Shown: piece by piece, positions 4,753-53,218 of the stretch
Position numbering within the stretch: position 1 is the stretch's first letter
How the letters are laid out: each line of letters opens with the position of its first letter
Origin: Flammulina velutipes
Taxonomy: Eukaryota > Basidiomycota > Agaricomycetes > Agaricales > Physalacriaceae
Assembly: GCA_011800155.1 (NCBI GenBank)
Contig: JAALGH010000011.1
Coordinates: 868,001 to 932,000, forward strand
Length of the DNA: 64,000 bases
Direction of reading: 5' to 3'
Notes under the pieces: model-generated
What the model was told of the DNA's origin: nothing
What the model saw: the letters and a program-made list of their open reading frames with translations, nothing else
The model's database searches: none
Translations under genes and position numbers: made by a program

Positions 4753-5667
4753 ATGTCCATTGACCCTAGCAATCCTGATCATCTCGCCTTCATCGCATTT
4801 GGTTTTGACGGTTTCAAGAAAACTCGACGGCGCCATGGCGTAGTCGAAATCGACGACGAAAAGCTCACGACTACTTCGCGCTTTCTCGATAGTCTTACAC
4901 ATCTAGCCATCCCCAAATCATCTAACCAAGTTGTAGCCGTTGGGGCAGATCTCAAGGATGACGGTGTGAACATCATCGTCGCCGAAAACAACGCTGTCGA
5001 CTCGCAAGTAATTGAACACATCCAGCACATCATGGCCGCCCTCTATGAAATCCGTCATACCTTTCGGGAACTTGAACGTCAAGTCACAACAGCTCCTCTT
5101 GTTTCATCCACTAAGCGACTTGTACACTCGTTCGGATACATCGCTGACGACGACACGCGTCTTATTCCATCGCTCCTCAGAGAGCTAGAGCTCTCGATAC
5201 TGCGTCATTCACCCCCGAAAGCGTCTGCCCGTATTCGCAAGGATCTTCGATACTCAATCTTCATCAAATTGGTCAAACGCTTTCTTACTCTTTGCGACGG
5301 TACTAGTGCTACTGGTCAAGAAGGCGGCTATGAGGGCCCCAAGATGTCTCCTCCTGACATGAGAAGGCTAAGCATGACAGTCGAGATCATGCGTTCTGCC
5401 TTGAAAAACCCTTCTCAACTGACGGACCAAAACCTGGCAGATTTCCGTCTATCCTCGTCAGTTCTAGAAGATATTCTGACACGCTACACTGAAGACATGA
5501 CCGCGCTGGCTACATTTTTTCTTTGTGTGTATGTTTATGTATGCTTCCCCATGATGTGCTTCGTCCTGATCTATCTAACAGCTGACCGCACAATCCCATT
5601 GGACGTTCTTCTTTGGCTTTCCAAGATCGGATTCGTTGGCAGGAGAACGTCCGTCCATCTAACTTAA
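4753..5667 (+). pseudogene. OTT_1508-like deaminase family gene lacking the catalytic C-terminus
   Basis: Starts MSIDPSNPDHLAFIAFGFDG and keeps the N-terminal region shared by three other copies in this window: SRFLDSLTHLAI, NQVVAVGADLKDDGVNII, DDTRLIPSLLRELELSILRH. After the first intron (near 5525-5580) only about 27 codons follow (DRTIPLDVLLWLSKIG...), then a stop at 5665-5667. The full-length paralogs run a further ~300 codons and contain the HxE and CxxC zinc motifs, so this copy cannot be a deaminase. It breaks off at GTCCGTCCATCTAA, the same 14 bp that begins every repeat of the tandem array to its right. It may be expressed as an N-terminal fragment; no frameshift lies upstream. Confidence 0.75.
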
Positions 5668-5756
5668 GTACATTATTTGTTTTCCAAGCTATATCAGTAA
5701 CTTTATCTGGTTTAAAAACGCATGCATAGTGGTGTAATTCATAAGTAACGTTCCCT

Positions 5757-6993
5757 TCAAGGTAATCTTACATTAAACCGCTCGACTGTTCTGGGTAAAA
5801 CACAACTGTAGAAATGCCTCGTGAATCTCCGTTCGACGCTTGGTACTGACATAACGGCAACCTTCCCAATGGACGCCCGCGACACCGTCTCGTCAAGTGT
5901 GCGCCATTGATCTGGCGCATCAAAATCCTCAAGGGTATAGTCGGATGACAACGGTATTCCGAACATGTACATTCGCAGCTCGAGAATATGAGGCGCATCC
6001 TCCCTCGCAAACACCTTCGTCCACCATTCGATGGCTCCGTCCAAAGTGGATACCTCACGAGTCACCGTCCTCATATTCGCAGGACCCAAGCCCGACCTCA
6101 AGGCGACCAAGGAGATGAGGTAGCTGCAAAATCGGAATGTCATTTCCGTACCCTGCGATAAACATAAGAAACAGCGCTGGATATAGAAGTTTGAAGACAC
6201 AACGTACAACGAGCCCTGTCTTTTGCAAAGTGAATCATCAGTGATTTCAGTGCGGGCACATGACAGAGGACGTTGTTGATCCTGGTCACCAAGTTGGTGC
6301 TCATATGAGGGACCTTGAGACGTAGGGTTTCCAGCACATGCAAAGGGAGTCCAAAAGATGGTAGAGCGTCGAGGAAGAGGTGATCCAAGGGAAGGTACAC
6401 TATGAGATACAGTGTCCAGCCATTGGATCCTTGGTATTCCTTCTTTGTGTTTGCCACTGGCAATCTACGTTGTATCGGAGGGTCGGGACCTTTGCATTTC
6501 CATCCGATGTTTGAAGCGCCATTCAGACTCTGTAAATGAGTATAATACTCGCAGATAACAAGCCTGGTGAGCGTGAGCGTGCCTTTCCTCATAAACACGC
6601 TCGAAACCGCCTGGATAAGTTCGCGGAATGCGTCCAGTGATATGATTGGGCGAATTGATTCGACCAGATCCAGCTGCATGTCTCGTATCGGAGCGAGGAA
6701 AGCTTGAAAGTCTGACATGATCAAGAAGTTGGTGTTACGCATTGCTATTGTGCGAACATTGGGAAGGCAACGCAGGAGAGTTGGGGTGAGAAGATGGTTA
6801 TTTCTGCTGGAGAAATTCTCATTGTTGTCGTACATGCAGAATGTGGTGACCGATTGAGCGCGTTCGGGGTGTTCAACAAGGGATCTATAGACTGACTCGG
6901 AGTCGATCTTGTGAATCGTGATCGTGAGGTCTGAATCCTGAAAAGTATGAATTCAGTCGTAACTGATGTTGAAAGAGGTCGTACTGCGGACAT
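5757..6993 (-). CDS. LRR-like family protein, tandem copy 1
   Basis: Minus-strand gene starting MSA at 6993, with a 5' intron placed exactly as in the paralog at 39491. Then come DSDLTITIHKIDSES, EHPERAQSV, LLRCLPNVRTIAM, SDFQAFLAPIRDMQL, DHLFLDALPSFGLPLHVLE and LVTRINNVLCHVPALKSL, followed by a second intron and a C-terminal exon (AIEWWTKVFAREDAPHILEL ... RTLDETVSRASIGKV ... FYSCVLPRTVERF). The spacing of Leu/Pro blocks suggests degenerate leucine-rich repeats, as in fungal F-box/LRR-like proteins, but no F-box is visible. In this copy a 7-bp insertion in the last exon brings in a stop (EYEDGDS*) on the frame conserved in the paralog, so the C-terminus may be lost. Confidence 0.6.
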
Positions 6994-7772
6994 TGGATGT
7001 GTAAGCTGAGAGGGAGCGGTAGGATGGGAAGATACTGAGATACACTGTTGGAGTATTTATGAGACGAGCAGTCTCCCAGCCAACCGAGAGGACAATAAGC
7101 TGGATGCATGTCAATGGCACAGGAAGTCCAAAAGTGGCTCAAGACAATAAGTAAAGACCATATCAGAGGGGACCACTGCTATTGTAGTCTGTAGCAGACA
7201 AAAGAGACCAGTCGAAAGGTGGTGACTGACAGCCGCAACGAAGTAGATTATTGTTGAGCACTGAGAAGCGTAAATGCACGAGCCATCTCTGCACAGCAGT
7301 TCATGTGGAGACCTGTTGACCTCGAAATGTGGCGCAATCAGTGAATTCCGCTCAGTCCTCCTAGGCTAGAGCGGGTTTAATGCGGTGTACCGTAGCTAAT
7401 CACCGCTTTCAAAACGCACGTTGGACGTTTGAAGGAAAGATTCGAGATAGCACAGCCGCATCACATCACCGCAAGCCAAGCGTCCGATGTAAACTTGGCT
7501 TGATTAACTACCACCACCAGTGACTACTACCACCACTTCCACTACGACTTTTGCCGTCGTTGGACTTGCTTGTGCTTGAAGAAGAGTACTTAACGACCAA
7601 GCAGCGTACGTGTTCATCTTCGGCGTCGCGATCTTGTGTTGCTGATCCGGCTTGCAGAACACCTCTTTTCTATTTTTCAACTTTTGACTTTCGTTTCTAA
7701 ACTAGAAAGGTTCGTCGAAATGACTATGAGGAATAGCGCAGCCTGACGTCGCGACACTAGGATAATTTCGCA

Positions 7773-7859
7773 ATGTCGATGCCACCACCACCACCGCCTC
7801 TTCCACCTCATCCAGAGATTCGGTACCATCCTTACGAGTACGATGGGCCGGTGGAGTAA
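7773..7859 (+). pseudogene. Truncated 5' end of SKT5 (copy 1)
   Basis: The first 25 codons of SKT5 (MSMPPPPPPLPPHPE ... YEYDG) with the same upstream leader as the intact gene at 29814. The match ends after CGATGG (7846), where cargo begins, and the frame stops three codons later (PVE, TAA). The leader and promoter region are kept, so a short non-functional transcript reading into cargo is possible. Confidence 0.9.
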
Positions 7860-8039
7860 TCGCCGCCCGTCTGCGTCACGACTGCCCCACCCCCACTCCA
7901 AATCACCCCAGAAACGACGATTCCCCGCGGCACCCATCCCTCACTCTCATCGAACGCAACATCGACGCCTGCTAAAACGATGTCAAGTCGCCGCGCAGGG
8001 ATTCGTCAACACACCTAAATTCGCGGCAACGGACGTGCG

Positions 8040-8265
8040 GAGGGACGTCTTGAGAGGGTCCTACACGTCCGTTCGGGAGCGTCTTGAGAGGATGGCGGCA
8101 GAGGACGTGTCTGTGGAGCGCCGTCGGGACGTCTTGAGAGGACGCGTCTCTGGAGGCTCTCAAGACCTCCCCCCGAGAACGCGTCAAGAAGGACGTCTTG
8201 AGAGGATAGCGGCAGAGGACGCGTCTCTGGAGGGCCGTTCGGGAAGGACGCCTTGAGAAGCTTGC
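8040..8265. repeat. Degenerate minisatellite (GACGTCTTGAGAGG motif)
   Basis: About five diverged copies of GACGTCTTGAGAGG, interleaved with GGCGGCAGAGGACGTGTCTG-type and GGACGCGTCTCTGGAGG-type segments; one copy is inverted (CTCTCAAGACCTCC). It lies ~200 bp inside the left edge of the cargo and recurs at 19061-19286 in copy 2. Confidence 0.75.
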
Positions 8266-8909
8266 GGCAGACGTACATCTTTGATTCGATACGCGTCGTT
8301 GTACTTGGTCAAGGAATATCACCCTGCTTTATATCTTTTCTGCGTGCACGGGCCTTGGATGCCGTTCTGCGCGAATATATGCCGTCGCCAACTCCATCTA
8401 GTCAAGTCTACGGATGCTCGCGCTTGCTCGTTCGTCGTCGATAAACTGGGGCGTTGGATTCCTGGATGGCTGCGAGTCGTGGCTATCGAATGGCACTATC
8501 ACCGAGCGTATCCATTTCCCGAATCTCGTGGGAATAATCAGGATGGGTACCCCAGCAGAGGGTCATATTCACACTACAAGGTGGCCCATTTTCTCAAATA
8601 TCTTTCAATTTTGTCCATAATTTCCCCTCCCCGCAGGGACCACACATGAATTAAAAAAAGTCTAGTACATGGGTTCTTACTATACACGGACGTGACGTCG
8701 CGTGCAGTACAGGGATATACAAAATGAAACCCGTGCGCCACATAGCTCCACACCGGACTCCGCATCAAAGGAGTCTTCAGTGCGTGCGGGCAGTCAACCG
8801 GGCTAACTACTAACTGACATGGCGCGGTCCAGAGGGATTGTCGCTCCCGGAGGAGAGAGCCCACTCTGCCGGATTCCATCTCAGTCCGCTTTTCGGCATC
8901 TACGTGTCG

Positions 8910-9447
8910 ACGAGCGACACGTACCGTAGTAGTTGCCCTGGCGCAAACGGGGAGAAGTGTAAATACGAAGCGAAAATGATAAACTGACCGGTCTCGTCAT
9001 CTCTTTGAAAAGGTTAGCGGAACTGTACTCGAGTGCATGAGAAGCTTACTGAATGTTGTAGGATCCGGCATGGTATGTGGCGTTGAGTGTGAATGTTGCC
9101 GAATGATCTTGGCGTCAATAACACTAAAATGCAAGACTGTGATAGAGGTGAGTACCAGGCAACAAGTTGGCAATGCAGACGTACCCAAGTCCTAGCTTTA
9201 CACCGCGCCGAGTACGAATGTCGCCAAATGACTTGTAGTCTGTCGTGAGCCAGGCGCTGCTAAACGAGGTGAATACGGGACACTAATAGAAGGTTTACAA
9301 ACGTACGGGCAAACTTGAAGCGTGTCCTGTCTGTTCAACTGCTAATGAATACAGGACCGCAAGCTAAACATATGGACGTACCCAGCTTTCCGAAACAGCA
9401 TTACGACAACGTGGTGGGAAGAGAGAGAGGAGAAAAGTGACCGACAT
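8910..9447 (-). CDS. Unrecognised multi-exon gene in cargo (minus strand)
   Basis: From ATG at 9447 (MSVTFLLSLFPPRCR) four or five short exons stay open across introns with GTACGT donors and CAG/TAG acceptors (about 9379-9336, 9300-9251, 9182-9121 and 9046-9000). The reading passes through LNRQDTLQVCPAWLTTDY, KSFGDIRTRRG, VIDAKIIRQHSH and, with an AAAGAG acceptor, DETGQFIIFASYLHFSPF, then another GTACGT donor near 8921. The consistency of donors and frame argues for a real gene. I do not recognise the protein, and the 3' end beyond 8910 is unresolved. An identical copy lies at 19931-20468. Confidence 0.45.
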
Positions 9448-9533
9448 ACTGACCCTTATATAGTAACCGTAGTTACATCACGAGCCACAGACGCGTCGCG
9501 GAAAGCTTGTTGATCCAGTCTGGGCTGTGACAA
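9448..9533. promoter_or_regulatory. Candidate bidirectional promoter between mirrored starts
   Basis: Only 86 bp separate two outward-pointing ATGs. The starts are part of an inverted repeat, GTGACCGACAT (9437-9447) and ATGTCGGTCAC (9534-9544), so both frames begin MSVT. Between them are TATATA (9457-9462) and the hairpin GTAAC-CGTA-GTTAC (9463-9476). A promoter role is inferred from position and the TATA-like box. Copy 2 equivalent: 20469-20554. Confidence 0.4.
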
Positions 9534-9830
9534 ATGTCGGTCACTCTCTCTCTTACTTCCACCATCGACTATTCGTCAGCGACATTCATGCCCGCCAATT
9601 CATTGCCACTTGTTCACCGTTGAGACATATTACGAACGCTTGGAATGCCAGAATCATACTTACGACTCCGACTGTGGCGTATATCGTGGTACGTTCTTTC
9701 GTTGTATGTGTTATTGGGAACGCTAAACTTCATTCAATACATGGCTTGTAGTGGACTGCTTCAACCGCTGAAATACCATGTATTGGCTGTCCGCTCGCCG
9801 CTGGGCTTTTTTTCGGGAAAAAAAGTACGT
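9534..9830 (+). CDS. Unrecognised gene start in cargo (plus strand)
   Basis: ATG at 9534 (MSVTLSLTSTIDYSSATFM) mirrors the minus-strand start. Further downstream, GTACGT...TGTAG bounds an intron near 9700-9750 and leads to an exon coding CPLAAGLFFGKK, the first of five copies of this peptide, followed by another GTACGT donor at about 9826. The frame between the first exon and this one is not resolved: the simple reading stops after NSLPLVHR. Equivalent in copy 2: 20555-20851. Confidence 0.35.
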
Positions 9831-11400
9831 CTTTTTACCTCAAAATGTTGCCTTACTGAGCGTTAAATCAAGCTATGTCGCCCTTTGAACTGCGAAACCA
9901 GTCAATGGGTGCCAGTTGGGTCCTACAGACCGGAACAAGAGCTCGCCGACCTGTGCGCCACACTGTTTTCCTTGACGACGAAGAGGTTTCGGGTACGTTC
10001 ATTCCTTTTCATTCCAACCCTCCATACCTAGAGCTTTGCGAGTTCGATACCGGAGATCCATTCCCAAATGACACTTCCGTTGTCACCAAGTCCGTCGCTG
10101 GATCGAATTCCTTGTTTGGCGCTCGCCGCGGGGCTTTTTTTTGAACAAAGTACGTGTTTTAGACTCCCAAAAACATGCTCAAATTGATCTTTCTTTCAGA
10201 CGACACTGTCGCCCGTACGGCCCAAAATGTCTACCTTTAACGCTACATGATCAACTGGGTGTAAACGCTTGGAAGCGCAGCGCGACAAGTCTTTAACTAT
10301 GTCCATTGATGCGCCAGAGTCACTGGTATGTCTTTGTATATATCTCTCTTCAGTGTCGAGCTCACCATTTCCAATTCAGCCAGAGCTTGATTCATGTCAT
10401 TAACATACCCGTCCTCACACTTTCGCTATTGTTGCCATGTGATATTGGCATTGGTGGTTCGCTCGCCGCGGGGCTTTTCATCCGTTTAAAAGGTGTGTAA
10501 TTTCGACTGTGGTTTGCACACAAGATCTGACCTTCAAAACATCCATATAGGCTCGTTTCCCTGCAAACTCGAAGGCTGGAGCCTAACAGACGGTATCGTC
10601 GCCGGGCTATACTGCCCTGCTTCGGAGTCAAGACTATGACGAATCCCCGATGAACGCCACATCTATTTCCCTTCTCGAAATCAGTGCAAATGATCACGAC
10701 GATCATTCCCCTGTGACGCGTATGGGAAGAATCAATGTAAGTAATTCCGTTTGACTTACCTTGAGCGTTAGTTCACACCATAGCCACTGTCTGCCTATCC
10801 ATCCTCCGCTATAATCAATCTCCAGCGGTAAGTTCGCTCGCCGCGGGGCTTTTTAGAGTGAGTGTTTTTCACTCTGTTTAGTAACGATGATCTGACCTTC
10901 AAACATCCAAAATAGACTCGTTTGCCTTCAACGTCAGTGGCACGACGGAAGCCCGGCGCGCATGCCCCATATATTCACCACCCTCTCGAAACGAGCGTGG
11001 ATGATCGTTGCTATCGTTCCCCTGTTCGGCGAATAGATGAATGAACGTCCGTTCAATTCATCTCGACCTTGATCCCACATTCCAAGGCTTCTGACAGCGG
11101 CTGCGCCGCTGTCCCTTCGTCAACATCCTCGACCGCCTCAAACCTCAATCTACTCTGTACACGCTACTGAGCCTAGGAGCGGTGATTCGCTCGCCGCGGG
11201 GCTTTTTTTTGGGGAGAAAGTACGTGTTTTTGACCCTGTAATTTGAAGCTCAATCTGACCTTTGAGATCAGGTAATTCTCCTCCGTCATGCAACAAAATT
11301 GAAGAAATATGAGTCGCAGGGCCGCATGTCATCAGGCCCAAGATCTGGGGCGAACCGCGATGCGCCACACATCACTTTTGCCCTGTTCCGACGTGTCACC
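9770..11400 (+). repeat. Five tandem ~350-bp modules with SLAAGLF peptide
   Basis: The 10-mer GCTCGCCGCG (first copy GCTCGCCGCT) followed by GGGCTTTT occurs at 9793, 10121, 10461, 10836 and 11189, with spacings of 328, 340, 375 and 353 bp. In the shared frame it codes PLAAGLFF, ALAAGLFF, SLAAGLFI, SLAAGLFR and SLAAGLFF. Most modules then have a GTACGT-like donor and an intron with an ATCTGACCTT branch region. Modules 3 and 4 also share a later exon (LEISANDHDDHSPVTR versus LETSVDDRCYRSPVRR). Diverged tandem paralogous exons or small genes are likely; function unknown. Copy 2: 20791-22421. Confidence 0.7.
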
Positions 11401-11868
11401 TATCGTCTCCTTGGCAGCACGTCTACACCCGCGAGATATTCGTGTTCTGGTGCGTCTTTTTGACCCTTCTGGACTTTCCCTCTGGTGATTTGCACAGATC
11501 TCCGTGTGTCGACCTTCCTTCTATCCCTGCAGGAAGTATAGGAGCGTAATGAGTACCGTACGCACGTCTATCTATAGCACGCGCGGACACGTTGACTGGA
11601 TTCATGGACGCGAGGCGGAAGCCTTGCCCTCGTTCCGCAATCTCGCGCAACCCAGAACGTGACTATTTACTTCATACGCCGTCGTAGTGTCGTTCTATTA
11701 GACTCCAATGTATACTATATATCGAATTTCAATACCTTTGTCCTTTTAATGAGTTGAACATCACTCGGACTTGGGAATTCAATGACTTACAGTTGAAAGC
11801 TACGGCGGGATCCCGCTGTGAACACGGGCGCTACGGCGCGCGCAACACTTTGGATCAGAGGGGATAGA

Positions 11869-11913
11869 TATTGCACAATGTCTAAGAGACATAGTGTATA
11901 CAATAGTGCAATA
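11869..11913. repeat. Double-hairpin palindrome
   Basis: Outer arms TATTGCAC (11869-11876) and GTGCAATA (11906-11913) enclose a perfect hairpin ATGTCT-AAG-AGACAT (11878-11892) and the palindrome TGTATACA (11895-11902). The topology is a three-way junction. Copy 2: 22890-22934. Confidence 0.7.
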
Positions 11914-13329
11914 AACGAGATAACACAAAGAAACTTACATATTCCAACAAAGTCGGATAGTTGTTGTACTAACTACTGTATCTCAGCAACACTGTTTTGC
12001 GAATGCACTGTTTCGGATGGCCGTATTGCCGCGAAAATTATGTCAGGGTACTCTTAGCTTCCTAAAACCTCAGAAACATGTGCTACTTGAGCGGGCAGGG
12101 TGCGTATCCAGCCGCTATTGTCGCTCCGGAGGGTGAATGCTCGTTGGGATCTTCCAAGATTCAACGGTGTTGGATGTTCAGGGTGACAGCCGGGAATAGT
12201 ATTAGACCATGTCAAAAATAGATGCCAAGGTCTACTTGGAACATCTAATGTCAGAGCATGTGCCAATCTTCAGTCCGAGCGCCGCCACAGTGCTGCAGAC
12301 CATTGTAAGGCATCCTGTTGCTTTGGCACCTTTTGGTTATCGTAGAATAAAATATTTGAGCTATAAGAGATTATATTTCCTTACTCCGAGACCGAAAACG
12401 CGTGAAAACACGTCAGATTGACTTGAATCCAACTGAGGACGCGCGGACCCTAGCTATCAAGATGATCAGACCCTGTGACACTTTGTCCAATCTAATCGTG
12501 ACGCAAACACGTCTTTCTTCGCAACGTTCATGTTCGCGAAACGTGAGTCGTTTCTTCTCGCTCTAATCCACTGACATATGTATTCATATATCTTCTAGTA
12601 TTCCCTTCGTTGGCGCGATTCACTCAGTACGCGCTCTACAACGTTATTGTAACGTGTTTTAACTATTGCTTAGAACATTCCCATCTTCACGGACAGACGG
12701 GCGCCTCATTGTTCCTCTTACGTCTCTTCCCTTGGTATTTGGAGTCGGACTTGGGAGTCCGCTCCCTTCGAATAACGGGCAGGGTACAATTCCGCCGTTT
12801 TCACTAATTCATCGCTCCAGGCTTCAGCGGTTCAAGAGGCCGCCTACTACCATCAGAGGGTAACGTGATATGACCCTTGATCAATATGGGCATCCGGCTA
12901 TGCGCGTTTGAAGGAGGAAGGTTGCAGAGGGAGAGGAGGAGGAGAAGGTGCTTGTTAGCTCATTGTAAGCAATGGCTATGTGCAGGGACTTGATACACCT
13001 CTAACATGTACCTCCCAACATTAGTTTCGAAAGTTTTCGAGGTCCCAATATGCAGGAATAGGTACGTACTTCAATCTCGTTCGCGCCGCCACCCTCTTCT
13101 CATCAAATGTCATTCCGCACTTCCACAGTTTGGGGCTCTTATTTCGGCCGGACCGGGTATATGTCACTATTGTGACTGTACCTCGCCGTGTATCGGCGTC
13201 CGAGAGCGGAGTCATTCTGGGTATAAGTACGGTAGGATAGTCTGCTGAATATCATCATTCCTTCCCATCTTCTCTATTTCCCTCTTATGCATTATTCTAT
13301 CTTATACGACTCTATTCCATTTCTATCTC

Positions 13330-14536
13330 GTCCTCAACTTCCTTTTCGACGCTCTCAAGAATACTCTTGACGTCGAGCAGAACAGCGATCAAGCCAGGTA
13401 CGTTTCTTTCCCACGGCCTCTTTCCTCTTGCTACCATGTTCGAAATCTCACTCGTTGGACAGGACCTTAGAAACGTTCAGCAAAGCTAACGGTACGTCTC
13501 TTACTACCTTTGTATCGTCCGTTTTGCGCTAACCCAGCTTGTAGCAATTCGAGACGCGCTGACAACGCGCTTAACCACCAACATGCAACGACTTTCATTC
13601 GACTCTGGGACCATCCTGTAGGTTTTATAATGCTTCTAGCGCTCACGTACTATGCTAACTCATCCCATAGGAGTCGCACAATCCTCTCGCTTGGATATTA
13701 GTTGGTCTCGTTCGTGGCGGCGACGAACGGACAGAATGGGTACGTTTTCATTTCATACGAGAATTACTAAACTCACTCCATGCAGCATTATAACTACATT
13801 CCATACGGATTCAGGACCGACTCCACGGCAACCTAACGAAAACGACGACAAGCAGCGACTGGTACGACACCAATGATGGTTCGAGGCATACACATACCAC
13901 AGGATTCCTCATTCGTATCGCACCCTATACCTCGCAGTCTCTTTCGCCTATCGATATCCGAGCCCTATCAACCCCCAGCTTACAAGGAATCGAACAAACA
14001 GGTGTGTATCGCCTTTCTATCATATTTTGCCTCATGCTAACAATGAATCCAGACAGCTATCCTATCAAGTCGTCTAGCGCAGCACGCACCCAACACCGCT
14101 CTGAAGAGCGGCTCGTCGGTATACTGACGTGGGCGGTGTGCGCTTGGACGCAAGAACGTGAGTGATAGCTCTATCCTTTAGGTTATTAATGCTAATATCT
14201 TCGTGTTAGCATCGGATGTCATTCGTCGACAAGCGCCCAACCCAAATGGCTACTTTTACGAACACAAAGTACGGCGCTTAACATATTTCTCTCTCCACAG
14301 AACCGGATTCAAACTCATGGACGTGCGCAACGACATTGGTATGTAATGATATCGTATCACAGCGATTCCTTGCTAACCAAACAATATTAGCTCGACCTCT
14401 TTCTTTGGCGATTGCCATCGGTCAAGTCGAAGGTTTTCCCGGCGCGGCTATGATTCCATTCAGAACGACCAATGACTACCAAACACTGGAACGCGATGTG
14501 CTGTTACGGAGCTGTAGCTATTTGAATTACAACTAG
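13330..14536 (+). CDS. Unrecognised multi-exon gene in cargo (gene X1)
   Basis: A chain of short exons with strong splice signals holds an open frame: DALKNTLDVEQNSDQA, AIRDALTTRLTTNMQRLSF, ESHNPLAWILVGLVRGGDER (13671-13739), a 187-bp exon (13815-14001; LHGNLTKTTTSSDWYDTN ... FLIRIAPYTSQSLSPIDIRA), then the exon holding palindrome A and, in a frame I cannot join with certainty, MATFTNTKTGFKLMDVRNDI and LSLAIAIGQVEGFPGAAMI ending at a TAG at 14534-14536. The N-terminus is not found. I do not recognise the family. One reading across palindrome A meets a TGA where palindrome B has CGA, so the gene may be damaged. Copy 2: 24351-25557. Confidence 0.4.
14076..14144. repeat. 69-nt Y-shaped palindrome, element A
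   Basis: Arms AGCGCA/TGCGCT close a long stem with two single-G bulges. Inside are two 6-bp hairpins: CCGCTC-TGAA-GAGCGG (14096-14111) and CGTCGG-TATA-CTGACG (14114-14129). It lies inside an apparently coding exon of X1. Sequence similarity to element B stops within a few bases of both ends. Copy 2: 25097-25165. Confidence 0.8.
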
Positions 14537-15129
14537 GTGAGCAAACTCAGATTTCGCTTTGTTTTGCATACCCACTCACGGCAACGCGATAGTTCTAAAG
14601 AACTATCTCTGATACTCCAAAATGATTGGGACTTGATATCTTACCTACATCCGCTTGGATAGAATCGGACGCGCATGCTTCGAGCCCCGTATCGGTGTGT
14701 TCAAGTTTGACATCGCCATTGATCTCCTTCTAACGATAAGCGCAGTCTTATCAATCACCGCATCTGAACGCTACACCCGACCAACACCGTTTTGAATGAA
14801 GGACGTGCACTTTATCTAACGCGGCCTGTTAGCGCTTCGACAAAGTGGTTGCGAAATTGGGATACCGCCGGGCATTCAACTCTATCGGGTATGTCTTTCA
14901 TCGGATGCTCTTCTTTTCGTCTAATGAGACTCATAGCATCCGGCAAGGCTTGCCTTTGCCATACCGTCTATGTTCCAAACTCCGAGACTCAACGCTCAAA
15001 GGTGAGCTCAATCGCTAAGGATTGATATAACCATTGACGAAAATCGAATCGTAGTTCGTCACTCGTGATCGTATCGTTTCTTCTACAGTTCCAAATGGTC
15101 AGCACGCGCTTGGTAAGTCCGTTCTTCGC

Positions 15130-15673
15130 TTTCGTCACTGCCAGCTAATCGTTACATCAGTATAGCGAGGGTATCTTTGTTTTCTCGACGACTATCGACG
15201 ACTCGTTGGATTCCATATACCGTGTACCGAGATATCTTCTCGCGGTACGCTTCTTTTTACCTTATTTCATTCCATTGAGCTAAGTATCACGTTACAGCGC
15301 TCACTACAAGATTGCCAAACGATATACCGTTCGCGATCTGGCTTGTTGTTCAGCGCAGCACGCAGCCAACACCGTTCTAACGAACGGCTCGTCGGTATAC
15401 CGACGTGGCTGGTGTGCGCTTACACGAACCATGACAATGGTGAGTACTTACATAGCTGCCTTTTCTTGCTACTGATACTTTCACTAACTATCAGGAACTA
15501 TGTAATCTAATGCGACGCAAACTGGAATACATCATTCAAGCGCGCCATAATATCGATGGTACATCTCGTCTTTGCGTCTGAATGGCTTCGTAAAGTCATC
15601 TAACGACCTCTTAGGCTCGGGCGAAATCAGTGCGTCCAACGTTGCGGGGGACAAGTCGACTGCAGATGCTTAG
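15130..15673 (+). CDS. Unrecognised multi-exon gene in cargo (gene X2, 3' part)
   Basis: One frame stays open over at least four exons to a TAG at 15671-15673: STTRWIPYTVYRDIFSRAHY, KIAKRYTVRDLACCSAQHAA, NTVLTNGSSVYRRGWCALTR, LMRRKLEYIIQARHNID and SGEISASNVAGDKSTADA. Introns have GTACGC, GTGAGT and GTACAT donors and CAG/TAG acceptors. Palindrome B falls inside the second of these exons. The 5' exons, perhaps from about 14792, are not resolved. The family is not recognised. Copy 2: 26151-26694. Confidence 0.45.
15352..15420. repeat. 69-nt Y-shaped palindrome, element B
   Basis: Same architecture as element A but fully paired: the outer stem AGCGCA..TGCGCT continues through GCAC, GC and AGCCA/TGGCT with only two bulged G residues, then branches into CCGTTC-TAAC-GAACGG (15372-15387) and CGTCGG-TATA-CCGACG (15390-15405). 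Eight positions differ from A. Copy 2: 26373-26441. Confidence 0.85.
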
Positions 15674-18792: not shown

Positions 18793-18879
18793 ATGTCGAT
18801 GCCACCACCACCACCGCCTCTTCCACCTCATCCAGAGATTCGGTACCATCCTTACGAGTACGATGGGCCGGTGGAGTAA
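18793..18879 (+). pseudogene. Truncated 5' end of SKT5 (copy 2)
   Basis: Identical to the fragment at 7773-7859: 25 SKT5 codons, break after CGATGG at 18866, then PVE and TAA from cargo. Confidence 0.9.
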
Positions 18880-21800
18880 TCGCCGCCCGTCTGCGTCACG
18901 ACTGCCCCACCCCCACTCCAAATCACCCCAGAAACGACGATTCCCCCGCGGCACCCATCCCTCACTCTCATCGAACGCAACATCGACGCCTGCTAAAACG
19001 ATGTCAAGTCGCCGCGCAGGGATTCGTCAACACACCTAAATTCGCGGCAACGGACGTGCGGAGGGACGTCTTGAGAGGGTCCTACACGTCCGTTCGGGAG
19101 CGTCTTGAGAGGATGGCGGCAGAGGACGTGTCTGTGGAGCGCCGTCGGGACGTCTTGAGAGGACGCGTCTCTGGAGGCTCTCAAGACCTCCCCCCGAGAA
19201 CGCGTCAAGAAGGACGTCTTGAGAGGATAGCGGCAGAGGACGCGTCTCTGGAGGGCCGTTCGGGAAGGACGCCTTGAGAAGCTTGCGGCAGACGTACATC
19301 TTTGATTCGATACGCGTCGTTGTACTTGGTCAAGGAATATCACCCTGCTTTATATCTTTTCTGCGTGCACGGGCCTTGGATGCCGTTCTGCGCGAATATA
19401 TGCCGTCGCCAACTCCATCTAGTCAAGTCTACGGATGCTCGCGCTTGCTCGTTCGTCGTCGATAAACTGGGGCGTTGGATTCCTGGATGGCTGCGAGTCG
19501 TGGCTATCGAATGGCACTATCACCGAGCGTATCCATTTCCCGAATCTCGTGGGAATAATCAGGATGGGTACCCCAGCAGAGGGTCATATTCACACTACAA
19601 GGTGGCCCATTTTCTCAAATATCTTTCAATTTTGTCCATAATTTCCCCTCCCCGCAGGGACCACACATGAATTAAAAAAAGTCTAGTACATGGGTTCTTA
19701 CTATACACGGACGTGACGTCGCGTGCAGTACAGGGATATACAAAATGAAACCCGTGCGCCACATAGCTCCACACCGGACTCCGCATCAAAGGAGTCTTCA
19801 GTGCGTGCGGGCAGTCAACCGGGCTAACTACTAACTGACATGGCGCGGTCCAGAGGGATTGTCGCTCCCGGAGGAGAGAGCCCACTCTGCCGGATTCCAT
19901 CTCAGTCCGCTTTTCGGCATCTACGTGTCGACGAGCGACACGTACCGTAGTAGTTGCCCTGGCGCAAACGGGGAGAAGTGTAAATACGAAGCGAAAATGA
20001 TAAACTGACCGGTCTCGTCATCTCTTTGAAAAGGTTAGCGGAACTGTACTCGAGTGCATGAGAAGCTTACTGAATGTTGTAGGATCCGGCATGGTATGTG
20101 GCGTTGAGTGTGAATGTTGCCGAATGATCTTGGCGTCAATAACACTAAAATGCAAGACTGTGATAGAGGTGAGTACCAGGCAACAAGTTGGCAATGCAGA
20201 CGTACCCAAGTCCTAGCTTTACACCGCGCCGAGTACGAATGTCGCCAAATGACTTGTAGTCTGTCGTGAGCCAGGCGCTGCTAAACGAGGTGAATACGGG
20301 ACACTAATAGAAGGTTTACAAACGTACGGGCAAACTTGAAGCGTGTCCTGTCTGTTCAACTGCTAATGAATACAGGACCGCAAGCTAAACATATGGACGT
20401 ACCCAGCTTTCCGAAACAGCATTACGACAACGTGGTGGGAAGAGAGAGAGGAGAAAAGTGACCGACATACTGACCCTTATATAGTAACCGTAGTTACATC
20501 ACGAGCCACAGACGCGTCGCGGAAAGCTTGTTGATCCAGTCTGGGCTGTGACAAATGTCGGTCACTCTCTCTCTTACTTCCACCATCGACTATTCGTCAG
20601 CGACATTCATGCCCGCCAATTCATTGCCACTTGTTCACCGTTGAGACATATTACGAACGCTTGGAATGCCAGAATCATACTTACGACTCCGACTGTGGCG
20701 TATATCGTGGTACGTTCTTTCGTTGTATGTGTTATTGGGAACGCTAAACTTCATTCAATACATGGCTTGTAGTGGACTGCTTCAACCGCTGAAATACCAT
20801 GTATTGGCTGTCCGCTCGCCGCTGGGCTTTTTTTCGGGAAAAAAAGTACGTCTTTTTACCTCAAAATGTTGCCTTACTGAGCGTTAAATCAAGCTATGTC
20901 GCCCTTTGAACTGCGAAACCAGTCAATGGGTGCCAGTTGGGTCCTACAGACCGGAACAAGAGCTCGCCGACCTGTGCGCCACACTGTTTTCCTTGACGAC
21001 GAAGAGGTTTCGGGTACGTTCATTCCTTTTCATTCCAACCCTCCATACCTAGAGCTTTGCGAGTTCGATACCGGAGATCCATTCCCAAATGACACTTCCG
21101 TTGTCACCAAGTCCGTCGCTGGATCGAATTCCTTGTTTGGCGCTCGCCGCGGGGCTTTTTTTTGAACAAAGTACGTGTTTTAGACTCCCAAAAACATGCT
21201 CAAATTGATCTTTCTTTCAGACGACACTGTCGCCCGTACGGCCCAAAATGTCTACCTTTAACGCTACATGATCAACTGGGTGTAAACGCTTGGAAGCGCA
21301 GCGCGACAAGTCTTTAACTATGTCCATTGATGCGCCAGAGTCACTGGTATGTCTTTGTATATATCTCTCTTCAGTGTCGAGCTCACCATTTCCAATTCAG
21401 CCAGAGCTTGATTCATGTCATTAACATACCCGTCCTCACACTTTCGCTATTGTTGCCATGTGATATTGGCATTGGTGGTTCGCTCGCCGCGGGGCTTTTC
21501 ATCCGTTTAAAAGGTGTGTAATTTCGACTGTGGTTTGCACACAAGATCTGACCTTCAAAACATCCATATAGGCTCGTTTCCCTGCAAACTCGAAGGCTGG
21601 AGCCTAACAGACGGTATCGTCGCCGGGCTATACTGCCCTGCTTCGGAGTCAAGACTATGACGAATCCCCGATGAACGCCACATCTATTTCCCTTCTCGAA
21701 ATCAGTGCAAATGATCACGACGATCATTCCCCTGTGACGCGTATGGGAAGAATCAATGTAAGTAATTCCGTTTGACTTACCTTGAGCGTTAGTTCACACC

Positions 21801-24800
21801 ATAGCCACTGTCTGCCTATCCATCCTCCGCTATAATCAATCTCCAGCGGTAAGTTCGCTCGCCGCGGGGCTTTTTAGAGTGAGTGTTTTTCACTCTGTTT
21901 AGTAACGATGATCTGACCTTCAAACATCCAAAATAGACTCGTTTGCCTTCAACGTCAGTGGCACGACGGAAGCCCGGCGCGCATGCCCCATATATTCACC
22001 ACCCTCTCGAAACGAGCGTGGATGATCGTTGCTATCGTTCCCCTGTTCGGCGAATAGATGAATGAACGTCCGTTCAATTCATCTCGACCTTGATCCCACA
22101 TTCCAAGGCTTCTGACAGCGGCTGCGCCGCTGTCCCTTCGTCAACATCCTCGACCGCCTCAAACCTCAATCTACTCTGTACACGCTACTGAGCCTAGGAG
22201 CGGTGATTCGCTCGCCGCGGGGCTTTTTTTTGGGGAGAAAGTACGTGTTTTTGACCCTGTAATTTGAAGCTCAATCTGACCTTTGAGATCAGGTAATTCT
22301 CCTCCGTCATGCAACAAAATTGAAGAAATATGAGTCGCAGGGCCGCATGTCATCAGGCCCAAGATCTGGGGCGAACCGCGATGCGCCACACATCACTTTT
22401 GCCCTGTTCCGACGTGTCACCTATCGTCTCCTTGGCAGCACGTCTACACCCGCGAGATATTCGTGTTCTGGTGCGTCTTTTTGACCCTTCTGGACTTTCC
22501 CTCTGGTGATTTGCACAGATCTCCGTGTGTCGACCTTCCTTCTATCCCTGCAGGAAGTATAGGAGCGTAATGAGTACCGTACGCACGTCTATCTATAGCA
22601 CGCGCGGACACGTTGACTGGATTCATGGACGCGAGGCGGAAGCCTTGCCCTCGTTCCGCAATCTCGCGCAACCCAGAACGTGACTATTTACTTCATACGC
22701 CGTCGTAGTGTCGTTCTATTAGACTCCAATGTATACTATATATCGAATTTCAATACCTTTGTCCTTTTAATGAGTTGAACATCACTCGGACTTGGGAATT
22801 CAATGACTTACAGTTGAAAGCTACGGCGGGATCCCGCTGTGAACACGGGCGCTACGGCGCGCGCAACACTTTGGATCAGAGGGGATAGATATTGCACAAT
22901 GTCTAAGAGACATAGTGTATACAATAGTGCAATAAACGAGATAACACAAAGAAACTTACATATTCCAACAAAGTCGGATAGTTGTTGTACTAACTACTGT
23001 ATCTCAGCAACACTGTTTTGCGAATGCACTGTTTCGGATGGCCGTATTGCCGCGAAAATTATGTCAGGGTACTCTTAGCTTCCTAAAACCTCAGAAACAT
23101 GTGCTACTTGAGCGGGCAGGGTGCGTATCCAGCCGCTATTGTCGCTCCGGAGGGTGAATGCTCGTTGGGATCTTCCAAGATTCAACGGTGTTGGATGTTC
23201 AGGGTGACAGCCGGGAATAGTATTAGACCATGTCAAAAATAGATGCCAAGGTCTACTTGGAACATCTAATGTCAGAGCATGTGCCAATCTTCAGTCCGAG
23301 CGCCGCCACAGTGCTGCAGACCATTGTAAGGCATCCTGTTGCTTTGGCACCTTTTGGTTATCGTAGAATAAAATATTTGAGCTATAAGAGATTATATTTC
23401 CTTACTCCGAGACCGAAAACGCGTGAAAACACGTCAGATTGACTTGAATCCAACTGAGGACGCGCGGACCCTAGCTATCAAGATGATCAGACCCTGTGAC
23501 ACTTTGTCCAATCTAATCGTGACGCAAACACGTCTTTCTTCGCAACGTTCATGTTCGCGAAACGTGAGTCGTTTCTTCTCGCTCTAATCCACTGACATAT
23601 GTATTCATATATCTTCTAGTATTCCCTTCGTTGGCGCGATTCACTCAGTACGCGCTCTACAACGTTATTGTAACGTGTTTTAACTATTGCTTAGAACATT
23701 CCCATCTTCACGGACAGACGGGCGCCTCATTGTTCCTCTTACGTCTCTTCCCTTGGTATTTGGAGTCGGACTTGGGAGTCCGCTCCCTTCGAATAACGGG
23801 CAGGGTACAATTCCGCCGTTTTCACTAATTCATCGCTCCAGGCTTCAGCGGTTCAAGAGGCCGCCTACTACCATCAGAGGGTAACGTGATATGACCCTTG
23901 ATCAATATGGGCATCCGGCTATGCGCGTTTGAAGGAGGAAGGTTGCAGAGGGAGAGGAGGAGGAGAAGGTGCTTGTTAGCTCATTGTAAGCAATGGCTAT
24001 GTGCAGGGACTTGATACACCTCTAACATGTACCTCCCAACATTAGTTTCGAAAGTTTTCGAGGTCCCAATATGCAGGAATAGGTACGTACTTCAATCTCG
24101 TTCGCGCCGCCACCCTCTTCTCATCAAATGTCATTCCGCACTTCCACAGTTTGGGGCTCTTATTTCGGCCGGACCGGGTATATGTCACTATTGTGACTGT
24201 ACCTCGCCGTGTATCGGCGTCCGAGAGCGGAGTCATTCTGGGTATAAGTACGGTAGGATAGTCTGCTGAATATCATCATTCCTTCCCATCTTCTCTATTT
24301 CCCTCTTATGCATTATTCTATCTTATACGACTCTATTCCATTTCTATCTCGTCCTCAACTTCCTTTTCGACGCTCTCAAGAATACTCTTGACGTCGAGCA
24401 GAACAGCGATCAAGCCAGGTACGTTTCTTTCCCACGGCCTCTTTCCTCTTGCTACCATGTTCGAAATCTCACTCGTTGGACAGGACCTTAGAAACGTTCA
24501 GCAAAGCTAACGGTACGTCTCTTACTACCTTTGTATCGTCCGTTTTGCGCTAACCCAGCTTGTAGCAATTCGAGACGCGCTGACAACGCGCTTAACCACC
24601 AACATGCAACGACTTTCATTCGACTCTGGGACCATCCTGTAGGTTTTATAATGCTTCTAGCGCTCACGTACTATGCTAACTCATCCCATAGGAGTCGCAC
24701 AATCCTCTCGCTTGGATATTAGTTGGTCTCGTTCGTGGCGGCGACGAACGGACAGAATGGGTACGTTTTCATTTCATACGAGAATTACTAAACTCACTCC

Positions 24801-27714
24801 ATGCAGCATTATAACTACATTCCATACGGATTCAGGACCGACTCCACGGCAACCTAACGAAAACGACGACAAGCAGCGACTGGTACGACACCAATGATGG
24901 TTCGAGGCATACACATACCACAGGATTCCTCATTCGTATCGCACCCTATACCTCGCAGTCTCTTTCGCCTATCGATATCCGAGCCCTATCAACCCCCAGC
25001 TTACAAGGAATCGAACAAACAGGTGTGTATCGCCTTTCTATCATATTTTGCCTCATGCTAACAATGAATCCAGACAGCTATCCTATCAAGTCGTCTAGCG
25101 CAGCACGCACCCAACACCGCTCTGAAGAGCGGCTCGTCGGTATACTGACGTGGGCGGTGTGCGCTTGGACGCAAGAACGTGAGTGATAGCTCTATCCTTT
25201 AGGTTATTAATGCTAATATCTTCGTGTTAGCATCGGATGTCATTCGTCGACAAGCGCCCAACCCAAATGGCTACTTTTACGAACACAAAGTACGGCGCTT
25301 AACATATTTCTCTCTCCACAGAACCGGATTCAAACTCATGGACGTGCGCAACGACATTGGTATGTAATGATATCGTATCACAGCGATTCCTTGCTAACCA
25401 AACAATATTAGCTCGACCTCTTTCTTTGGCGATTGCCATCGGTCAAGTCGAAGGTTTTCCCGGCGCGGCTATGATTCCATTCAGAACGACCAATGACTAC
25501 CAAACACTGGAACGCGATGTGCTGTTACGGAGCTGTAGCTATTTGAATTACAACTAGGTGAGCAAACTCAGATTTCGCTTTGTTTTGCATACCCACTCAC
25601 GGCAACGCGATAGTTCTAAAGAACTATCTCTGATACTCCAAAATGATTGGGACTTGATATCTTACCTACATCCGCTTGGATAGAATCGGACGCGCATGCT
25701 TCGAGCCCCGTATCGGTGTGTTCAAGTTTGACATCGCCATTGATCTCCTTCTAACGATAAGCGCAGTCTTATCAATCACCGCATCTGAACGCTACACCCG
25801 ACCAACACCGTTTTGAATGAAGGACGTGCACTTTATCTAACGCGGCCTGTTAGCGCTTCGACAAAGTGGTTGCGAAATTGGGATACCGCCGGGCATTCAA
25901 CTCTATCGGGTATGTCTTTCATCGGATGCTCTTCTTTTCGTCTAATGAGACTCATAGCATCCGGCAAGGCTTGCCTTTGCCATACCGTCTATGTTCCAAA
26001 CTCCGAGACTCAACGCTCAAAGGTGAGCTCAATCGCTAAGGATTGATATAACCATTGACGAAAATCGAATCGTAGTTCGTCACTCGTGATCGTATCGTTT
26101 CTTCTACAGTTCCAAATGGTCAGCACGCGCTTGGTAAGTCCGTTCTTCGCTTTCGTCACTGCCAGCTAATCGTTACATCAGTATAGCGAGGGTATCTTTG
26201 TTTTCTCGACGACTATCGACGACTCGTTGGATTCCATATACCGTGTACCGAGATATCTTCTCGCGGTACGCTTCTTTTTACCTTATTTCATTCCATTGAG
26301 CTAAGTATCACGTTACAGCGCTCACTACAAGATTGCCAAACGATATACCGTTCGCGATCTGGCTTGTTGTTCAGCGCAGCACGCAGCCAACACCGTTCTA
26401 ACGAACGGCTCGTCGGTATACCGACGTGGCTGGTGTGCGCTTACACGAACCATGACAATGGTGAGTACTTACATAGCTGCCTTTTCTTGCTACTGATACT
26501 TTCACTAACTATCAGGAACTATGTAATCTAATGCGACGCAAACTGGAATACATCATTCAAGCGCGCCATAATATCGATGGTACATCTCGTCTTTGCGTCT
26601 GAATGGCTTCGTAAAGTCATCTAACGACCTCTTAGGCTCGGGCGAAATCAGTGCGTCCAACGTTGCGGGGGACAAGTCGACTGCAGATGCTTAGCGCTTA
26701 GTAGGCTTTACCGCGACCTCAAAGTTTAGTATATAGTTACACGGGAAAAACCGAGTGGCTTGAAGTCTAATGGTATAGCTACCTATTGTCAACACATGGG
26801 GGTCGCGAGTTGTTCTTCCAACTTGTACGTCCATGTTCATCCCTCTTAGATAGTTTCGGCTAACACTTCGCCTAGGTGTTTTTGAATCGACGTTCTCGTG
26901 GATGCGACGTCCGTCAGTGGAGGACGAGAAGGTGTACTTGGTATTGTCGATGGTACGTCTCCTCTCTTTTCGTCAGATCAACGCTCCTTTTCTAACTCCA
27001 TGACTTAGCAATTATCGAAACGTTCAACGTTTTGACTTGCCTACGTTGACTAGTCCCGCGACAGCGATGGAACTTTTATCTCTTTCGCATCATACCTGCC
27101 TCTACCCCAGTCGCAGTTGTAAGATTGCTGCACGCGTCTGGGTTTCGGGAAACGTGTTCTGGCATACATGGCAAGATTGCTGCCTTTGCCAGGTACATGG
27201 TTCTTTGGTTCCCCACGGCCTCACTCTAGCGTAGAGCTTGCGTCCACGCGTATCGTCGTCTAGGGAGAAAAGGAGCTCTTCAAGGCATGTCTACATTCTA
27301 CGGTGCATAGATAGCCACGAATTGATATAATGAACCGCCACATTGCTAGCAGAAAAGGCTGTTACTCTCGAGCTCTTCGTCGGACGCCTTTGTCTCCGGA
27401 TGAAAGCCCTTCGGCGGAGTAGCCACTCAAGCTCGATATCGATCTCATTCACACAGGAGGTACGTCGTCTTGCTTAGTTATACTTTCGTTTGTCAACAGA
27501 TGCTATAGCCTTGTTGTCGCCATGGAATGGACATTATCGCCCGACTCTGGTCTGGGTAACGAAACGAATACCTCGATCTAACCCTCTCGTCGTGACGATA
27601 GGAGGAGGGGCAGCAACGAGTACGTAGATATGACTCCCTTTGTGTTCGTATCTCATGGCTTCCAACAGACGAATCGAGCCCATGGTTTTTTGCGGGATGG
27701 TAGTGCAGCGCGCT
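18867..27714. other. 8.85-kb cargo segment, copy 2
   Basis: Second copy of the cargo described at 7847-16693, offset by 11,021 bp and apparently differing only by one C in a poly-C run near 18946. Every coding signal, module repeat and palindrome is present at the shifted position. Its right end joins the third LRR-SKT5 copy at 27715. Confidence 0.85.
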
Positions 27715-29887
27715 GTCCGTCCATCTAAGTACATTATTTGTTTTCCAAGCTATATCAGTAACATTAAAAACGCATGCATAATGGTTTAATTCGTAAATAA
27801 CGTTCCCTTCAAGGTAATCTTACATTGAACCGCTCGACTGTTCTGGGTAAAACACAACTGTAGAAATGCCTCGTGAATCTCCGTTCGACGCTTGGTACTG
27901 ACATAACGGCAACCTTCCCAATGGACGCCCGCGACACCGTCTCGTCAAGTGTGCGCCATTGATCTGGCGCATCAAAATCCTCAAGGGTATAGTCGGATGA
28001 CAACGGTATTCCGAACATGTACATTCGCAGCTCGAGAATATGAGGCGCATCCTCCCTCGCAAACACCTTCGTCCACCATTCGATGGCTCCGTCCAAAGTG
28101 GATACCTCACCGTCCTCATATTCGCAGGACCCAAGCCCGACCTCAAACCAAGGAGATGAGGTAGCTGCAAAATCGGAATGTCATTTCCGTACCCTGCGAT
28201 AAACATAAGAAACAGCGCTGGATATAGAAGTTTGAAGACACAACGTACAACGAGCCCTGTCTTTTGCAAAGTGAATCATCAGTGATTTCAGTGCGGGCAC
28301 ATGACAGAGGACGTTGTTGATCCTGGTCACCAAGTTGGTGCTCATATGAGGGACCTTGAGACGTAGGGTTTCCAGCACATGCAAAGGGAGTCCAAAAGAT
28401 GGTAGAGCGTCGAGGAAGAGGTGATCCAAGGGAAGGTACACTATGAGATACAGTGTCCAGCCATTGGATCCTTGGTATTCCTTCTTTGTGTTTGCCACCT
28501 GGCAATCTACGTTGTATCGGAGGGTCGGGACCTTTGCATTTCCATCCGATGTTTGAAGCGCCATTCAGACTCTGTAAATGAGTATAATACTCGCAGATAA
28601 CAAGCCTGGTGAGCGTGAGCGTGCCTTTCCTCATAAACACGCTCGAAACCGCTTGGATAAGTTCGCGGAATGCGTCCAGTGATATGATTGGGCGAATGGA
28701 TTCGACCAGATCCAGCTGCATGTCTCGTATCGGAGCGAGGAAAGCTTGAAAGTCTGACATGATCAAGAAGTTGGTGTTACGCATTGCTATTGTGCGAACA
28801 TTGGGAAGGCAACGCAGGAGAGTTGGGGTGAGATGATGGTTATTTCTGCTGGAGAAATTCTCATTGTTGTCGTACATGCAGAATGTGGTGACCGATTGAG
28901 CGCGTTCGGGGTGTTCAACAAGGGATCTATAGACTGACTCGGAGTCGATCTTGTGAATCTTGATCGTGAGGTCTGAATCCTGAAAAGTATGAATTCAGTC
29001 GTAACTGATGTTGAAAGAGGTCGTACTGCGGACATTGGACGTGTAAGCTGAGAGGGAGCGGTAGGATGGGAAGATACTGAGATACACTGTTGGAGTATTT
29101 ATGAGACGAGCAGTCTCCCAGCCAACCGAGAGGACAATAAGCTGGATGCATGTCAATGGCACAGGAAGTCCAAAAGTGGCTCAAGACAATAAGTAAAGAC
29201 CATATCACAGGGGACCACTGCTATTGTAGCCTATAGGACTCCAGACAAAAGAGACCAGTCGAAAGACAGCCGTAACGAAGAAAGTTATTGTTGAGCACTG
29301 AGAAGCGTAAATGCACGAGCCATCTCTGCACAGCAGTCCATACGGAGACCTGTTGACCTTAAGAACGGCGAAGTGTGGCGCAATCAGTGAATTCCGCTCA
29401 GTCCTCCTAGACTAGAGCGGGTTTAATGCGGTGTACCGTAGCTAATCACCGCTTTCAAAACGCACGTTGGACGTTTGAAGGAAAGATTCGAGCACAGCCG
29501 CATCACATCACTGCAAGCCGAGCCTCCGATGTAAACTTGGCTTGATTAACTACCACCACCAGTGACCACTACCACCACTACCACCACTGCTGCGACTTTT
29601 GCCGTCTTTGGATTTGCTTGTGCTTGAAGAAGAGTACTCAACGACCGTACGTGTTCATCTTCGGCGTCGCGATCTTGTGTTGCTGATCCGGCTTGTAGAA
29701 CACCTCTTTTCTATTTTTCGACTTTCGACTTTCGTTTCTAAACTAGAAAGGTTCGTCGAAATGACTATGAGGAATAACGCAGCCTGACGTCGCGACACTA
29801 GGATAATCTCGCAATGTCGATGCCACCACCACCACCGCCTCTTCCACCTCATCCAGAGATTCGGTACCATCCTTACGAGTACGATGG
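27715..29887. repeat. Third partial array copy (donor-left/native-right), continuous with intact SKT5
   Basis: Begins with the same GTCCGTCCATCTAA junction and matches copy 2 for its first ~780 bp. From about 28498 it carries private variants: an extra C, scattered substitutions and several indels around 29206-29350. At CGATGG (29882-29887) it continues into the complete SKT5 coding region instead of cargo. It therefore holds the native right boundary of the locus. Confidence 0.95.
27809..29035 (-). pseudogene. LRR-like family gene, tandem copy 3, frameshifted
   Basis: Starts MSA at 29035 and matches copies 1 and 2 to the PPIQRRLP region. There an extra C (GCCACCTGG at about 28498, versus GCCACTGG) shifts the frame: copies 1 and 2 read VANTKKEYQGSNGWTL, while here the conserved DHLFLDALPSFGLPLH block is out of frame. 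Both paralogs outside the array keep the unshifted reading. The C-terminal part is donor-type, as in copy 2. A base-call error in the short C run cannot be excluded. Confidence 0.6.
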
Positions 29888-51417: not shown

Positions 51418-51507
51418 GCATTAATGGGGTAGTGGTAACCTGGGTGGTTGCCATATCGATGTGGTTTGAGACTCGACCCGCCGGGGGTTCAATTCCCTCT
51501 TAATGCA
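51418..51507 (+). tRNA. tRNA-Gly(GCC) with intron, one anticodon-stem mismatch
   Basis: Acceptor GCATTAA/TTAATGC and D arm are as in the other copies; loop TTGCCA (GCC). The anticodon stem is GGTGG/CGACC, so position 30 has a G-G mismatch, and the T-loop is TTCAATT instead of TTCGATT. It may be functional or an early-stage pseudogene. Confidence 0.6.
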
Positions 51508-53129: not shown

Positions 53130-53218
53130 GCATTAATGGGGTAGTGGTAACCTGGGTCGTTGCCATCTTTAAGTCATTTGAGTTCGACCCGCCGGGGGTT
53201 CGATTCCCTCTTAATGCA
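53130..53218 (+). tRNA. tRNA-Gly(GCC) with 18-nt intron
   Basis: Acceptor 53130-53136 pairs with 53211-53217. D arm GGGT-AGTGGTA-ACCT. Anticodon stem 53155-53159 GGTCG pairs with 53185-53189 CGACC; anticodon GCC at 53162-53164; intron about 53166-53183. T arm GGGGG-TTCGATT-CCCTC, discriminator A. Best-preserved copy in the window. Confidence 0.88.

Follow-up and report, generated by a model that had tools for sequence, protein, structure and literature searches.

Organization of the locus

The window, by which we mean the whole stretch of 64,000 nucleotides of Flammulina velutipes DNA analysed here (contig JAALGH010000011.1, positions 868,001 to 932,000 of the forward strand), carries a tandem array in which a host segment, designated A, alternates with a cargo element, designated B (Table 1). 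An earlier note, made from the letters alone, had described a 2.2-kb host segment present three times and separated by two near-identical cargo copies of 8.85 kb, and self-comparison of the window bears this out, the two copies of B being one 1-base indel apart. Positions 5665-18866 and 16705-29887 align at 99.25% over 13.2 kb, and the outer copies of A (5665-7846 and 27726-29887) at 95.6%. The start of each A copy was set by a shared GTCCGTCCATCTAA, the extra stretch on the left being masked in the self-comparison by a 5-base indel.

At its right edge, A runs into the gene encoding SKT5, a Sel1-repeat chitin synthase regulator whose ATG recurs at 7773, 18793 and 29814. The frames of copies 1 and 2 stop shortly past codon 25, and that of copy 3 continues as a 665-aa frame with Sel1 repeats; SKT5 is intact on the right only, as the same note had stated. 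The closest named relatives of this protein are from Hymenopellis and Cylindrobasidium, at 65-66%, with one further relative at 68%. The minus-strand gene within A owes its leucine-rich repeat (LRR) label to the earlier note and has a sub-threshold Pfam match only (E 0.096). Since SKT5 continues whole past the outer edge of A but is interrupted at the A|B junction, the order left flank, A, right flank appears to be the native one in the window. Elsewhere in the window, a 1.9-kb direct duplication (36603-38496 and 41911-43819, 75% identity) and two tRNA genes identified by Rfam (51418-51507 and 53130-53218) were also observed.

Table 1. Features of the array in the window, and loci elsewhere in the genome that carry the 18-nt motif of B
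Feature	Position	Strand	Second copy or equivalent	Remarks
A copy 1	5649..7846			host segment, adjoins left flank; minus-strand gene labelled LRR to SKT5 codon 25
Crossover interval	6106..6456		~17126-17476, ~28147-28497	three A copies identical
B copy 1	7847..16693	+		cargo element
~220-nt structured RNA (block 1), predicted	8731..8950	+	19752-19971	73 modelled pairs
Five exon-like repeats	9792..11204	+	20813-22225	17-nt core CGCTCGCCGCKGGGCTT
Promoter-like block 2	12355..13533	+	23376-24554	conserved; TATA-like motif 13219-13232
Three-way-junction RNA motif, predicted	14080..14143	+	25101-25164
Three-way-junction RNA motif, predicted	15356..15419	+	26377-26440
Conserved block	16081..16172	+		87% to C12b; AAGATTGCTGC motif repeated twice
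A copy 2	16694..18866			recombinant, agreeing with copy 3 on its left and with copy 1 on its right
B copy 2	18867..27714	+		cargo element
A copy 3	27715..29887			sole copy joined to intact SKT5
SKT5	29814..31799	+		intact, right flank
Locus C2	3.61 Mb			A-B-A-B-A; A 3.6 kb
Locus C3	3.53 Mb			single A-B-A; A 2.4 kb; 5 events in 2445 columns
Locus at start of C5	0-88 kb
Locus C5b	C5, 3.10 Mb			single A-B-A; A ~2.0 kb, 92%; 153 events in 1997 columns
Locus C7	204 kb			single A-B-A; A at least 2.35 kb, ~93%; B split by insertion
Locus C8	1.58-1.60 Mb			three near-identical units, 28-kb interruption, then diverged last copy
Locus C12b	C12, 541-553 kb			three A copies of 2.6 kb; one B split

Recombination between the copies of A

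Re-alignment of the three A copies in the window yielded 55 variant events, at the first 17 of which the middle copy agrees with the right copy and at the following 38 with the left copy. Eight of the 17 fall at the A edge, within its first 16 bases, where copies 2 and 3 were aligned four bases early; the other nine are independent of that edge alignment. The differences private to copy 1 (against copies 2 and 3) are confined to positions up to 6105, and those private to copy 3 (against copies 1 and 2) begin at 28498 and lie only to the right, in agreement with where the earlier note had placed the exchange. The middle copies at C2 and C12b likewise switch once and in the same order, agreeing first with the right copy and, past the switch, with the left copy (32 events then 19, and 24 then 14). 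Given the counts, none of 20,000 shuffles had at most one switch in the window, and for C2 and C12b none of 20,000 was as orderly. Because clusters of events occur at ragged edges of A or where short stretches are misaligned (the first 16 bases in the window, 3603024-3603038 at C2 and beyond 517112 at C12b), the event counts are approximate, with their order unaffected. Copy 1 at C8 is set apart from copies 2 and 3 by 25 events within its first 1.05 kb and by one indel elsewhere, and two complete copies of B are identical over 6093 columns.

One homologous crossover inside the window's A is well supported, and recombination between copies of A is held with high confidence. A dimer of identical A copies ageing in place fits poorly, as changes private to the middle copy would then be expected and these make up 0 of 55 events in the window, 0 of 51 at C2 and 2 of 40 at C12b. 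The earlier note had interpreted the array as a Campbell-type integration, and the window does contain both a direct repeat of a homologous segment on either side of the cargo and a single variant switch. The crossover within A stands; the circular donor or foreign haplotype is not identified by the pattern, because an unequal crossover within an A-B-A locus carrying diverged A copies yields an identical middle copy, and diverged A-B-A loci are present in the genome (C3, C5b and C7, the last read with a gap). Campbell integration is possible but not required.

A dispersed family of cargo elements

The array had been known from the window alone, where its cargo appeared as unrelated DNA; a search of the genome (38.1 Mb, 23 contigs) with B detected relatives at other loci, several also in tandem, and B belongs to a family dispersed through the genome rather than being a one-off. 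An 18-nt motif of B occurs 83 times at up to one mismatch, all within the eight loci of Table 1, and a reversed-pattern control gave 0 occurrences. Two conserved blocks of B are 68-86% identical between loci (six of the eight compared), those of the window reaching at most 78% with the five others. Relative to the window, order and orientation of the conserved blocks are preserved at all four loci for which this was compared. No close full-length source copy of the window's B was found among the loci compared in this assembly; for pieces of the 3′ ends of B, matches of 86-90% to solo loci indicate that closer sources exist for parts of the element. The ends of B differ between loci and none is conserved, a comparison in which the A|B junction C7b is unreliable as A may extend past the stretch read; insertion by a dedicated enzyme is for this lack of conserved ends unsupported. 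The core of the three-way junction described below occurs 75 times in the genome at up to one mismatch, many of these beyond the eight loci, and the element looks modular. Two further series of this core, in which the 18-nt motif was not found, lie on C7 at 2850124-2910715 (mostly 11.64-kb spacing) and at 83254-100932 (8.8-kb spacing), and apparently represent a second array family.

The existence of the B family, comprising 6-9-kb elements that encode predicted structured RNAs and no recognisable protein, is held with high confidence. Among eight ORFs of at least 100 aa overlapping B copy 1, none had a Pfam match above cut-off and two matches were sub-threshold (E 0.044 and 0.047). Conservation specific to one frame was absent, similarity between loci being present in all six frames; conceivably B holds an intron-rich gene with small exons. 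Identification of B as a DNA transposon, Helitron or Starship was rejected for want of a transposase, Rep/helicase or recombinase match and of common ends; B may be a non-autonomous relative of such elements. An LTR retrotransposon with A as its LTR was also rejected, as the A segments of seven loci are dissimilar and B has no gag-pol ORF. Searches with exact patterns gave no relatives of B in viral contigs, prokaryote genomes or plasmid DNA, and no piece of A from another locus, as judged with the seven A segments, was present in B. Telomere repeats as part of B were dismissed, with just 0-3 single hexamers per strand and element.

Host DNA duplicated around B

Each of the seven loci read wholly or partly (the window, C2, C3, C5b, C7, C8 and C12b) has an A-B-A or longer arrangement, C7 and C8 having been read with gaps and the A boundaries of C7 incompletely. 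At the eighth locus, the start of C5, a 14-15-kb tandem spacing was obtained from match coordinates only. The direct repeats around B are ~2 kb or more of local host DNA and differ at each locus; no similarity across loci was found among the seven A segments. Besides a short match inside C3, aligning these segments among themselves and against B and some of the flanks revealed just three matches between the window's A and the right flank adjoining it, and a single match of 39 bp to the window's left flank. At C8, A measures ~5.7 kb by alignment, and its last copy is nearly identical to the others over the first 2.7 kb only, the right part being just 68-79% like them. The copies of A have diverged by roughly 0.2% (C3) to ~8% (C5b) at six of the seven loci, with ~2% between the outer copies of the window, and by more at C8. 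Since A copies are mostly 0.2-8% apart and B blocks are at most 86% identical, the insertions appear to be more recent than the lineages of B. At C3, where A is least diverged, B opens with ~30 nt that are similar to an internal stretch of A, 20 of these nucleotides being exact matches, and comparable filler was found at this one of 14 B ends tested. Filler at a junction is typical of template switching.

Genes at the edges of A differ in how they report on the original order, and the joining of the flanks by A is clear in the window alone. At the C12b edges, one frame that may have a start continues for 122 nt in the outer flank, compared with only 17 nt in B; frames at C3 are open across both the A|B and the A|right flank edges. 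A Pfam search of these edge-crossing frames returned no match. At C5b, the gene that is complete, as judged from matches of its C-terminus to relatives, is in the left copy and extends into B, and the right copy is truncated; this locus therefore needs a later deletion or some other history. Between its A copies (3092545-3094538 and 3102915-3104900), 51 of 61 coding differences fall at one codon position in a clear exon, suggesting that both versions of the gene evolved under protein-level constraint.

Several B copies are interrupted. A Ty3/gypsy-like LTR retrotransposon with ~1.7-kb repeats and gag-, RT- and integrase-like frames (judged by eye) is nested in B at C12b (C12:524622-531199), and a partly unread insertion in B at C7 (C7:205566-222871) is flanked by 1.7-kb repeats 98.7% like those of the C12b retrotransposon. 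A mostly unread 28-kb stretch (C8:1602789-1630836) interrupts the third B at C8, beyond which B continues at 93% identity and the divergence of A is much greater.

Predicted RNA and promoter-like features of B

Block 1 is predicted to adopt a branched fold of ~220 nt in which 94% of 437 cells are paired across six loci. Both sides have changed in 22 of its 73 pairs, compared with 10.1 in shuffles and 1-3 with the partners slid, the structure having been derived from the same six-locus alignment used for scoring. The 20 sources searched contain 25 occurrences of the three-way junction (16 distinct), and 13 of its 18 pairs have changed on both sides against a shuffle mean of 3.5, in an alignment fitted to its model. 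The number of further pair types, one of five measures, did not exceed the shuffles for either RNA (413/500 and 103/500 at least as high). Rfam gave no match to 5600-18900 at E up to 1, and for 8560-8990 three matches only, far below threshold (E 1.9-9). Read from these alignments, the ~220-nt fold and the three-way junction are covarying RNA structures without an Rfam match.

Block 2 is conserved to a similar degree as block 1, and its interpretation as a structured RNA was rejected on a covariation term of +4.95 (9 of 111 pairs changed on both sides), compared with -2.99 for block 1; in the part folded, 12674-13240, no covariation was found. Conservation without covariation, together with the TATA-like motif, suggests that block 2 is promoter-like. 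The fold of 16076-16176, around the conserved block near the 3′ end of B, was not clearly better than shuffles (25/200).

The exon-like repeats begin at 9792, 10120, 10460, 10835 and 11188, and a donor-like GT motif lies 6-16 nt downstream of each. Among 33 distinct 17-nt repeats (up to two mismatches), 27 are followed within 45 nt by a donor-like motif, mostly at 15-16 nt, compared with 7.6% of random positions, and 25 have an acceptor-like YAG upstream, against a background of 46%. These flanking motifs make spliced RNAs likely, and we infer that B is transcribed and spliced. The repeats were rejected as codons for an LAAGL-like peptide, the lengths of four exons, counted by eye, being 42, 43, 42 and 44 nt and the wobble positions being fixed as well.

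Origin and spread of the arrays

The reading that we favour, at a probability of about 0.47, is that B inserts with a kilobase-scale duplication of its target and that the duplicates then drive growth of the array by unequal recombination. B would enter a locus by illegitimate joining, probably replicative, as suggested by the differing ends of B and by the resemblance of the C3 filler to A. Some 2 kb or more of neighbouring host DNA would be duplicated on both sides to give A-B-A, which in the window would leave SKT5 intact on one side. Insertion may be replicative or proceed by template switching of an extrachromosomal copy, as in duplicative virus integration; this duplicative step is proposed with moderate confidence. 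Unequal crossover between the long A repeats would then produce A-B-A-B-A and larger arrays, and a reciprocal crossover would release A-B circles, which could be taken back in through a Campbell-type crossover. A free circular donor is proposed with low confidence.

In the Campbell reading, a circular or tandem A-B donor, derived from a divergent nucleus, underwent a single recombination with the native locus, of which the parts left of the switch in copy 1 and right of that in copy 3 are native, everything between being donor. The variant pattern fits exactly, the absence of a close source for the window's B (at most 78% among the loci compared) and the distance between the outer A copies would suit an imported donor, and the constraint on both gene versions at C5b would also favour this reading. 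However, an unequal crossover gives the same pattern and has A-B-A precursors in this genome, a circle bearing the A of exactly this locus would first have to be made, and the spread of A divergence between loci resembles a range of ages rather than one allelic distance, so that we regard this history as unlikely. A slightly poorer prospect is that B is an ordinary cluster of host non-coding RNA genes spread by segmental duplication, with A-B-A arising where sister or homologous chromatids had broken at unequal positions and were joined with B as filler. The conserved promoter-like block and the RNA folds suggest a function, solo relatives with the three-way junction are widely scattered, and the C3 filler would suit such repair; however, simple segmental copies have no need of the long host duplications present at all seven loci read, and the 18-nt motif (up to one mismatch) is absent outside the eight loci.

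An assembly artefact or collapsed haplotypes would be a very improbable explanation. Near-identical tandem copies are difficult to assemble, and the motif of the C5 array is already present 77 bases from the contig start, but in several arrays the private variants of the outer A copies adjoin flanks that are unique, and the arrangement is repeated at loci whose host DNA differs. A more speculative proposal, which we consider doubtful, is that B is a selfish, protein-free replicon living as A-B circles, its ~220-nt fold and three-way junctions aiding persistence; it would enter by kilobase-scale host duplication, leave cleanly through recombination between A copies that restores the host gene, and re-enter by homology with the captured host DNA as a handle.

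Relation to known systems

Single-crossover integration of plasmids in fungi produces A-B-A structures, tandem A-B arrays and recombinant A copies, and needs a circle bearing A. The arrays described here are alike in their architecture and recombinant A copies; in the present case such a circle would have to come from a natural source. Kilobase-scale target duplication is, to our knowledge, a feature of virus integration and not a signature of fungal mobile elements, and a search of full-text literature for long target site duplications gave no paper on such a signature, judged by titles and the beginnings of abstracts.

Gene duplications are reported in most lines latently infected with AAV (PMC2900306), and a polymerase template-switch model of AAV integration has been put forward (PMC5714925). 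The duplication at the target is shared with B; however, AAV encodes Rep and prefers one site, whereas B has neither a recognisable protein nor a shared target. For HPV, looping or heterocateny through rolling-circle and homology-directed steps has been proposed, with host-element concatemers and capture of flanking host DNA that resemble the arrays of B (PMC13386876). HPV heterocateny is tumour-specific and involves a protein-coding virus, unlike a dispersed genomic family without recognisable proteins. Region B of Zygosaccharomyces bailii in wine yeasts, with a proposed circular intermediate and little similarity at breakpoints, is likewise a DNA segment spread in a fungus, but it is a 17-kb segment from another species, and host-segment repeats are not mentioned in the abstract (PMC3053389).

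The main interest of these results is the B family rather than the Campbell reading. If B is mobile, an element without recognisable proteins can spread while the adjoining host gene stays whole, and its structured RNAs would be new ones for study. Ranging in A divergence from 0.2% to more than 8%, the loci constitute an age series on which insertion, amplification and loss may be tested.
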